Shown here: positions 8,246-45,734 of the stretch, piece after piece | How positions within the stretch are numbered: position 1 is the first letter of the stretch | Layout: each line of letters starts with the position of its first letter | DNA from: Verrucomicrobiales bacterium | Lineage (GTDB): Bacteria > Verrucomicrobiota > Verrucomicrobiia > Limisphaerales > UBA9464 | Length of the DNA stretch: 45,734 nucleotides | Assembly: GCA_027489875.1 (NCBI GenBank) | Contig: JAIXZE010000386.1 | Coordinates: 1 to 45,734 of the forward strand | Direction of reading: 5' to 3' | Program-made: the position numbers and the translations under genes | The notes under the pieces: model-generated | The model's database searches: none | Seen by the model: only the letters and a program-made list of their open reading frames with translations | Told to the model about the DNA's origin: nothing

Positions 8246-8309
8246 ACGGGTGGCGACGTCCCCGTCGCCCTCCGCTTTCCAATCGGCGTGCGATGAGGAC
8301 ATCGCGGCC
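8246..8309 (+). repeat. REPIN-like paired hairpin, copy 1
   Basis: The first hairpin is GGCGACGTCCCCGTCGCC at 8252-8269. The second, in opposite orientation, is GCGATGAGGACATCGC at 8290-8305. A spacer of about 20 bases separates them. The same layout recurs at 30428-30535, 30875-31006 and 44534-44598. This copy lies just after the secretin operon and lacks the outer inverted repeats found at 30875-31006. Confidence 0.75.
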
Positions 8310-30360: not shown

Positions 30361-30678
30361 GTTGAAAAAAGACGCCGGAAAGTGTGTTCCGCGCGTCGAG
30401 TTGTCAATGAACGGAATCCCAGCGGCAGGCGCATCCTGACACTGCCCCCCATGCAACGGGGTGGCGACGTCCTCGTCGCCGTTCCAAAGCCACTCCCAAG
30501 GCGATGAGGACCGCGGCCCCGAATCCTTTTCAAAGTTCCCAGGCGGTGGAAGCCGTGTTTCAGGTGCCTCGCGCTCCTCCTGTTTGGGAGGAGCGGGTCC
30601 GAATCGATTGAATTCTCGTCGTTCTGGAAATTGTGGCTTGCACGATTTTTGGAATCGTCTAATCAAGCGGCCCGGTTT
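30361..30678. other. 318-base region between ferredoxin and tRNA-Val
   Basis: No gene is supported. It holds the ferredoxin start-side region and a REPIN-like copy (30428-30535). The remainder up to the tRNA has A/T-richer stretches (for example TTGCACGATTTTTGGAATCG near 30632-30657) that could include the tRNA promoter; no clear -10/-35 pair was assigned. Confidence 0.6.
30428..30535 (+). repeat. REPIN-like paired hairpin, copy 2
   Basis: The left outer repeat GCATCCTGACACTGCCCCCC is at 30431-30450. The first hairpin GGCGACGTCCTCGTCGCC is at 30463-30480. The second, degenerate hairpin is at 30500-30518 (GCGATGAGGACCGCGG). Homology with copy 3 continues through GAATCCTTTTCAAAG and then stops, so the right outer repeat is missing. 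Confidence 0.8.
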
Positions 30679-30753: not shown

Positions 30754-31069
30754 TCCTTCCCCATTCCAAAGATCCCCACTCGTTCAGGATCTCCCGTTAT
30801 CTCCGGCTGGTTCCCCTGATTTCCTCCCTTCGGATGGACCGTTGGGGCCTTGGTTTCGACTGCTGATGGAAGGGGGCGCATCTTGCACTGCCCCCACATG
30901 GAACGGGGTAGCGACGTCCTCGTCGCCGTTCCGGAGCCTTTCTCAGGGCGATGAGGACATCGCCGCCTCGAATCCTTTCCAAAGGGGGGCAGTGCCAAGA
31001 CGCGCCCGATGGAAGGCCGGGATCGAGGCGGGTATTCCCAGCTTGGGCTTCCAGCGGTAGCGTCTCCGC
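30754..31069. other. 316-base region between tRNA-Val and DUF885 gene
   Basis: No gene is supported. An apparent minus-strand frame here reads through the tRNA and is an artefact. The main content is the most complete REPIN-like copy (30875-31006). Confidence 0.65.
30875..31006 (+). repeat. REPIN-like element with terminal inverted repeats, copy 3
   Basis: A 132-bp nested palindrome. Left outer arm GCATCTTGCACTGCCCCC (30878-30895) pairs with right outer arm GGGGGCAGTGCCAAGACGC (30985-31003), the arms differing by about two changes. Inside lie the two opposed hairpins: GCGACGTCCTCGTCGC (30911-30926) and GGCGATGAGGACATCGCC (30948-30965). The whole element can fold as one long cruciform. It looks like a non-autonomous mobile unit; no transposase lies nearby. 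Confidence 0.8.
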
Positions 31070-40389: not shown

Positions 40390-42150
40390 TCAGGCCCGGA
40401 ACAGTTGGCCGAGCTTCTTGCCCATGATCCGGCCGGCAATCAGGAGGCTGGACGTCAGGATGAGCATGCCGATCACGCCCAGGGCGCAGGCGACCGAGGG
40501 TGCGGAAGGGTTGATCCGGCCCATCAATTGCCAGATTTGCTTCGTCACGGGAAAGAACTGGTCCCGCATGGCGAGGATGAGGGAATCGCTGACCTCCAGC
40601 ATCGCGAACGAAAAGGTCAGGATAGTTCCAGCAACCAGGTTCGCCGCCACCAAGGGCAGCGTGATGCGGCGCAAGGTGCGCAGCGGAGAAGCTCCAAGGC
40701 TGGCGCTGGCTTCCTCGAGTGTGACCGAGGTTTGCTGGAATCCTGCGTAGGCCGAACGGACGATGTAGGGCAGACGACGCACCGAGTAGGAGATGATCAG
40801 GAGCAGGGTGGGGTTCGTTCGTGGATCAAACCAGCCGTCGAGCACAGGATGCGTCTTCTCGTTGATGTCGAAACCGGCAACGTACCCGAAGGCGAGCACG
40901 AGTCCCGGAATGGCGAGAGGCAACATCGCAAGCGCGTCGATGAGCCCGGCAAAGGGCAGGCGACGGCGGGTGAGCAGCCACGCGATCAGGACGCCCAGGA
41001 TCAGGTCGATGAAGGCGCTGATCGATGAGTAGAACAGGCTGTTCCGGATGGACGACGCCGTGAGGCCGTGTCCGAAGACCTCGGTGAAATGGGCCGTCGT
41101 CCACTCCTGCGGCAGGATGGAGAAGAACCATTTGCCGGCGAAGGCCTGGAGGATGACGGCGAAATGCGGCAGCAGGGCGACGCAGACCAACCCGCCCCCG
41201 GCGAGCCACGCGATGACGGCCTGCGAGCGCGAGGCGGAGCTTTCTGCGGCGGCCGTGTGCCCGCGGGCGATCATGGCATGGGACCGGCGGGCGAAGAGCC
41301 GTTTCGACAGCGTGAAGAGCAGGACGGTCACCATCAGCACCACCACGACCAGCGCGTATCCCTGTGGGTTGGTGTTGAGGTCATTCACCGCATCGAAGAT
41401 CTGCACCGGCACCAATCGCGGAAAACCGAAGATCAGGGGTGTTCCGAGATCCGTGAAACTCCAGATCCAGACGATGATCGCCCCGGCGAACCAACCGGGC
41501 AGGATCAGGGGGAGGGTCACCGTCCGAAACAGACGTGCACTGGAGGCCCCCAGGTTCTGGGCTGCCTCGCGAAGCGTCGGGTCCACGTTCGCCATGGCGG
41601 CGGACACGTTGAGGAAGAGGATTGGGTACAGGTTCAGCATCTGCAGGATCAGGATCCCCCAGAATCCGCCCGCTCCCAGCCAGTCGATGGGATCGGCGGG
41701 ATCACCGAGCCCCACCTTCTGGAGGAGGAGGTTGAGGGATCCGTACCGCGCGAGGATCTGCTTCAGTCCGATGGCACCGACGAACGGCGGCATGATCATC
41801 GGGATCAGGAGCAGGGAGGAGAGGATGCTGCGCCCGGTGAACTGCCATCGCGTGAAGATGTGGGCCAGCGGCAGGGTGATGAGGCTGCAGCCGAGGGTGG
41901 TGAGCGTGGCGAGGAGCGCTGAATTCAGGAGGGATTCCCGTTGGACGGGGCTCTGGAACAGCAGGACGAAGTACTTGAGGGTGAACTCATCTCCCGCACC
42001 AAACCCCCGCCGGAGCATGAAGCTCAGCGGATAGAACAGGAATGCCAGGAAGAAGACCGCCAGCACTCCCAGGAATGCCAGTGTCCAGCCGTTGAGATCC
42101 CATCGTCGCACCCGCGCACTTCCCGTTCGGCAGGGCGAAGATTCAAGCAT
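40390..42150 (-). CDS. two-domain ABC permease (iron/thiamine type)
   Basis: Inner-membrane permease of the FbpB/ThiP type, 586 residues, in which two BPD_transp_1 domains are fused. About twelve hydrophobic segments are present. Each half has a conserved coupling loop with an EAA-like pattern: the first REAAQNLGASSARLFRTVTLPLILPG, the second EEASASLGASPLRTLRRITLPLVAAN. The family imports ferric iron, other metals or thiamine with a periplasmic binding protein and an ATPase. Neither partner lies in the window, so this is an orphan permease or its partners lie elsewhere. ATG 42150 gives a short basic N-terminus; the longer frame to 42306 runs through palindromic repeats and is rejected. Confidence 0.9.
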   Translation of the reverse strand: MLESSPCRTGSARVRRWDLNGWTLAFLGVLAVFFLAFLFYPLSFMLRRGFGAGDEFTLKYFVLLFQSPVQRESLLNSALLATLTTLGCSLITLPLAHIFTRWQFTGRSILSSLLLIPMIMPPFVGAIGLKQILARYGSLNLLLQKVGLGDPADPIDWLGAGGFWGILILQMLNLYPILFLNVSAAMANVDPTLREAAQNLGASSARLFRTVTLPLILPGWFAGAIIVWIWSFTDLGTPLIFGFPRLVPVQIFDAVNDLNTNPQGYALVVVVLMVTVLLFTLSKRLFARRSHAMIARGHTAAAESSASRSQAVIAWLAGGGLVCVALLPHFAVILQAFAGKWFFSILPQEWTTAHFTEVFGHGLTASSIRNSLFYSSISAFIDLILGVLIAWLLTRRRLPFAGLIDALAMLPLAIPGLVLAFGYVAGFDINEKTHPVLDGWFDPRTNPTLLLIISYSVRRLPYIVRSAYAGFQQTSVTLEEASASLGASPLRTLRRITLPLVAANLVAGTILTFSFAMLEVSDSLILAMRDQFFPVTKQIWQLMGRINPSAPSVACALGVIGMLILTSSLLIAGRIMGKKLGQLFRA

Positions 42151-42194
42151 CAAGTGGAGGCGGACGAAGGTGAGCGGATACCGGAAGCCGGTGC

Positions 42195-42236
42195 TTTTGC
42201 AACTGGACGTCGCATATGCGACGTCCGGATGCAAAA
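42195..42236. repeat. 42-bp imperfect palindrome
   Basis: Centre at 42215.5, with the core ACGTCGCATATGCGACGT (18 bases, self-complementary). Nineteen of 21 arm positions pair; the ends are TTTTGCA and TGCAAAA. A related palindrome lies 72 bases further on. Both are upstream of the ABC permease gene and downstream of ligA. Confidence 0.9.
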
Positions 42237-42266
42237 CGGGGGCGAAAAACGAGGATTCGAGGGGTG

Positions 42267-42308
42267 ATTTGCAATCGCACGTCGCATATGCGACGTGCGA
42301 TTGCAAAT
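42267..42308. repeat. 42-bp perfect palindrome
   Basis: Every position from 42267 pairs with its partner to 42308 around centre 42287.5. The core is the same 18 bases as the first palindrome; outer ends are ATTTGCA and TGCAAAT. It differs from the first copy at positions changed on both arms, so pairing is kept. Confidence 0.95.

Positions 42309-42364: not shown

Positions 42365-45734
<3,370 letters not shown>

Follow-up and report, generated by a model that had tools for sequence, protein, structure and literature searches.

A dispersed, probably REPIN-like pair of long palindromes in two sister species of Verrucomicrobiota

The window analysed here is a 45,734-nucleotide stretch of DNA from a Verrucomicrobiales bacterium (assembly GCA_027489875.1, contig JAIXZE010000386.1), in which two palindromes lie between a permease gene and ligA (Table 1), ~40-45 bp upstream of the likely start of the former and ~57 bp past the end of the ligA frame. 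Below, G000 denotes the window's genome (6.2 Mb, 451 contigs) and G006 a congener that is its sister species. Both palindromes contain the identical 18-bp core ACGTCGCATATGCGACGT at a start-to-start spacing of 72, and with up to three mismatches allowed this core was found twice in the window, against 0.02 occurrences expected by chance. The coordinates, shared core and 72-bp distance between centres given in the original prediction were thus confirmed. The second palindrome pairs at 21 of 21 positions without a loop. Among the arm changes that had been described as compensatory, those at positions 1, 9 and 12 are indeed joint, whereas positions 8 and 10, the two mismatches of the first palindrome, have changed on one arm only. 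The ends of the 114-bp unit are related, being 85% complementary over 40 nt, and with DNA parameters the element is predicted to fold into two separate hairpins (-46.3 kcal/mol). The proposed spacing of seven helical turns is approximate, as 72 bp, with 10.5 bp to the turn, makes 6.86 turns; we rejected helical phasing on this ground and because spacings of 76-80 in G006 do not fit whole turns.

Table 1. Features at the paired-palindrome locus of the window.
Feature	Position	Strand	Remarks
Two-domain BPD_transp_1 ABC permease	40390..42156	-	Neighbour only; start inferred; G006 ortholog without the element
Palindrome A of the pair	42195..42236	.	Arms ending GGACGTCGCAT; 19/21 pairs
Spacer between A and B	42237..42266	+	30 bp, G-rich; length kept, sequence nearly saturated across loci
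Palindrome B of the pair	42267..42308	.	Perfect over 42 bp
Entire paired-palindrome element	42195..42308	+	114 bp; A-to-B orientation on the + strand
ligA, NAD-dependent DNA ligase	42365..44440	-	Neighbour only; 3' end faces the element

An operator role for the permease had been suggested from this arrangement. The label "iron/thiamine-type" given to the permease holds only approximately: the gene product is a BPD_transp_1 permease with two domains, and no listed NCBIfam model matched it above the cut-off. Its G006 ortholog, 81% identical at the DNA level, has no palindrome upstream. The G006 ligA ortholog has a different neighbour, ligA and the permease gene not being adjacent there, and the order permease-element-ligA was seen in none of the other congeners searched, so the window element sits at a break in synteny. 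We rejected the permease operator, since the G006 ortholog lacks the palindrome, the genes beside other copies are heterogeneous with no common theme, and both orientation and distance vary.

G000 has 35 exact matches to the core, and 79 when up to three mismatches are allowed. With the more general frame TTTRCA-N8-TCNCANNTGNGA-N8-TGYAAA and at most two mismatches, G000 yielded 78 palindromes and G006 yielded 64, another 48 genomes from the family, including seven congeners, yielded none, and the backward control of the pattern gave no match. A version centred on CATATG was unmatched among the remaining genomes of a 293-genome sample from the order. A third congener (G002, L169) has one palindrome of this kind. 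Roseibacterium, Clostridiales, Chlamydiales and one viral contig also gave frame matches, none of which is palindromic; these were set aside as chance. Viral carriage was likewise rejected, with no match of the exact core in IMG/VR and only eight unrelated contexts for TGTCGCATATGCGACA. The element has no match in Rfam, and our literature search found no text containing these palindrome sequences. Among the genomes searched, the palindrome family is restricted to the two sister species. The 114-bp paired repeat itself occurs ~40 times in G000, and this genome-wide scan, with its 78 palindromes and a paired unit lying between unrelated flanks, supports the alternative of a repeat family that the original prediction had raised. 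Both genomes are fragmented drafts with many copies at contig ends. Because copies that share descent are not independent observations, the numbers of sites and arms given here are not counts of events.

The paired unit has a well-defined anatomy. In G000, core spacing was 72 in 28 of the 32 pairs examined, 73 in two, 63 in one and 105 in one; the arms of member A end in GGACGTCGCAT, those of member B mostly in CGCGTCGCAT, and the 30-bp spacer is usually G-rich when read with A first. Arm positions 2-7 (TTTGCA) and 15-21 (GTCGCAT) are conserved in nearly 100% of arms while positions 8-14 vary; the outer TTTGCA/TGCAAA and the core are almost invariant, and the spacer is almost saturated. Outside one recent subfamily, diverged spacers keep their length and show an identity of 0.337 in register versus 0.288 when shifted. 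The spacer alone has no tendency to form a hairpin (mean fold z -0.06), and no conserved motif was found outside TTTGCA/TGCAAA. Elements that are 92-96% identical lie between unrelated flanks (L034/L028, L034/L045 and L020/L027), and their identity breaks at, or within ~14 bp of, the palindrome ends; the occurrence of homologous 114-bp pairs in unrelated flanks indicates that the pair is copied as a unit. At L048, a single hybrid palindrome, its left half from B and its right half from A, lies within flanks otherwise shared with the recent subfamily and is an internal deletion between the two palindromes. G006 is looser than G000, with spacings of 62-63, 72-73, 76-80, 90 and 100-101 and with arrays of three and four palindromes, including a tandem array of four with a 63-bp period (L134, 2635-2840). 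A subset of G006 copies carries a recurrent, fixed core mismatch, TGTCCCATATGCGACA, that places C opposite C, and the G006 arms are oriented, with TCCG on one side and ATGG on the other.

The family thus comprises many copies in A/B doublets, with unit boundaries at the palindrome ends, conserved ends and a drifting spacer, and we consider it probable that the element is a REPIN-like, non-autonomous doublet of REPs that has been dispersed by copying into intergenic DNA. By anatomy, the paired unit appears to resemble REPINs most closely. In the GI doublets of Pseudomonas fluorescens SBW25, two conserved ends lie at 71 bp around a less conserved spacer (PMC3116915), and our element shares with them a doublet that acts as the replicative unit, a near-fixed spacing (71 in SBW25 and 72 in our element), conserved ends around a spacer that drifts, an intergenic location and a lineage-specific copy number. 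As in REPINs, doublets are over-represented at a near-constant distance and the ends are conserved more than the spacer. Unlike in REPINs, each end is a 42-bp palindrome without a loop and the spacer forms no hairpin, no RAYT gene flanked by the repeat was found in the DNA examined around the Y1 genes, there is no GTAG tag, and copies are placed upstream of genes; we also found no hairpin of the whole doublet with a pairing spacer. CGTC-tagged REPs offer a second comparison, since there too CGTC can change to TGTC, heterodimers are frequent and no dedicated transposase is known (PMC3733652). Their CGTC, however, stands unpaired as a tag at the end of an 8-9 bp stem that carries a 4-5 bp loop, whereas in the present element no such unpaired CGTC/TGTC tag was found, and CGTC is paired inside a continuous stem of up to 21 bp, in a gene context opposite to theirs. 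GTAG REPs and the BIMEs moved by TnpA-REP are similarly short intergenic palindromes that form pairs and arrays with two alternating unit types (PMC8266576), but our element has neither GTAG or another unpaired tetranucleotide nor an associated TnpA-REP gene.

A mechanism of spread may be proposed along these lines. The two long palindromes, kept a fixed distance apart, would make up the 114-bp unit copied into intergenic DNA, and a putative nuclease or transposase acting on the palindromes would most likely spread it, as RAYT does with REPs. Spread by a hairpin-recognising enzyme is possible. G000 contains three Y1 transposase genes, and a different REP family flanks one of them; the genome therefore has enzymes that can act on palindromes, and we infer that a Y1 enzyme may act on the paired-palindrome family. 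None of the palindromes was found within the ~0.4-1.5 kb examined around each of the three G000 and two G006 Y1 genes. A RAYT flanked by the paired palindrome was rejected as a candidate, because the family beside the Y1 gene of L054 is a different one, GCGATGAGGACATCGC, which looks like a genuine RAYT-associated REPIN. This second family is also found in the window, as GCGATGAGGACATCGC with inverted GCGACGAGGACGTCGC (8253-8305, 30464-30516, 30911-30963 and 44535-44550); it forms doublets with a start spacing of 37, and its 14-mer has 39 copies in the 341 kb of G000 examined.

The unit could instead be a MITE of a DDE transposon, its palindromes being, or lying in, terminal inverted repeats moved in trans. 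This we think quite doubtful: the related ends of the 114-bp unit and the presence of copies between unrelated flanks would agree with it, but each end is a full palindrome, no parent element was seen, and target-site duplications of 3-8 bp show no excess in G000. In G006, the signal was weak and within the shuffles, with 11 flank duplications of 4 bp versus 4.9; the largest shuffle also gave 11. The lack of a clear duplication signal, and of any empty site at base resolution, also counts against the REPIN-like reading.

Gene context was assessed with a simple codon-based gene caller over the stretches examined, from which the background was also drawn. A single cluster out of 77 overlaps with a gene prediction. 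Of the 58 with two known neighbours, 28 are flanked by divergent genes and 2 by convergent genes, against 15.3 and 14.5 expected from intergenic length, and overall 92 neighbours face the copies with their 5' end versus 42 with their 3' end. The outcome that the original prediction had named as contradicting an operator, many copies of the core unrelated to promoters, was largely observed, with 78 palindromes and a paired unit between unrelated flanks, yet copies favour regions upstream of genes. This placement is the opposite of that of published REPs, whose usual sites are unidirectional and convergent intergenic regions close to 3' ends (PMC3733652); here convergent pairs are avoided and the classical 3'-end placement was not found.

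The upstream bias would fit a symmetric DNA-binding protein, whether dimer or tetramer, that bound both palindromes and controlled or organised promoters at ~40 loci. Spacing that is conserved in G000, symmetric conserved blocks around an unpaired variable linker in G006, and a species dialect that runs through the whole family in both its CATATG and CAGGTG subtypes also fit such operator or architectural sites. We nevertheless regard this explanation as unlikely. The neighbouring genes have no functional theme (they include those for PSD1/PSCyt proteins, LptF/G, an amidase, a biotin-synthase-like protein and rmlC), and A-to-B orientation relative to genes is unbiased, with 7 against and 4 along in 11 unidirectional cases. 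Distances to gene starts in G000 are broad, at 50-885 bp, and spacing in G006 ranges over 62-101; the G006 permease lacks the element, only three occupied orthologous sites were found, spacers are common to copies in unrelated flanks, and the family is absent from seven congeners. Transcribed RNA hairpins, acting as a terminator or an mRNA-stability element, would account for the stable predicted fold of the window element, but they are highly improbable given the near absence of copies between convergent genes, the lack of a terminator call at the window element and of an Rfam match, and arm-linker pairing that is not maintained in G006.

This last point bears on the original argument that compensatory changes imply selected pairing, which holds locally and weakens across the family. 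Among unique G000 palindromes, arm positions 8-13 pair at a frequency of 0.705 versus 0.519 when arms are re-dealt, and much of this excess is an effect of the A and B classes. Within classes it is modest, with 69 (B) and 58 (A) of 3000 shuffles reaching the observed value; mixed G000 palindromes show no excess, nor does G006 (0.503 versus 0.536 re-dealt). A selected continuous hairpin is accordingly not established. Conservation lies in the symmetric blocks, which is what recognition by a protein would call for.

These blocks differ between the two species. G000 arms carry (A/G)CGTCGC and TTTGCA, G006 arms TGTCGC and TTTACA or TTTGCA, and the change from CGTCGC to TGTCGC is family-wide, present on both arms, and holds for both the common CATATG and the rarer CAGGTG centre, each of which is found in both genomes. 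Both species carry the element at three orthologous sites (L020/L221, L021/L229 and L128/L145), so not all copies are recent; at the first, the genes are 88% identical and the order of A and B is the same, with a spacing of 72 versus 62. Beside other neighbouring genes the element is present in one species only, which together with the shared sites indicates that the family predates the species split and has turned over since. The dialect may have arisen because copies were replaced or because they changed in situ. Under the REPIN-like reading, a trans-acting protein would recognise the conserved TTTGCA and GTCGCA blocks, and the species-wide change would reflect either a change in that protein or the replacement of copies.

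A more speculative combination, which we put forward tentatively and would not expect to hold, is that a mobile paired palindrome enters promoter regions as it spreads and is recognised, in each species, by a symmetric DNA-binding protein that co-evolves with it; dozens of dispersed copies with two centre subtypes would thereby have shifted dialect together. As a lineage-specific doublet of long, loop-less palindromes that lies upstream of genes and has no adjacent RAYT, the element would be an addition to the REP/REPIN world, and the dozens of dispersed copies that have shifted in parallel between the two sister species provide a natural test of what keeps such repeats, a sequence-specific protein or copy turnover.

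Along with the two families described above, G000 contains further repeats. A ~66-bp repeat at L128 (3933-4000) has dozens of near-identical copies across the genome, often in tandem. The intergenic DNA that flanks L018, L019, L021, L037 and L042 is a mosaic of short repeats common to unrelated loci, among them CAGTTCCCAGAAGCCAGTTCCCAG, GTAGGCCGCGTGCCCCCAC and AACTTGAAACTTGAATCTGAAAAC.
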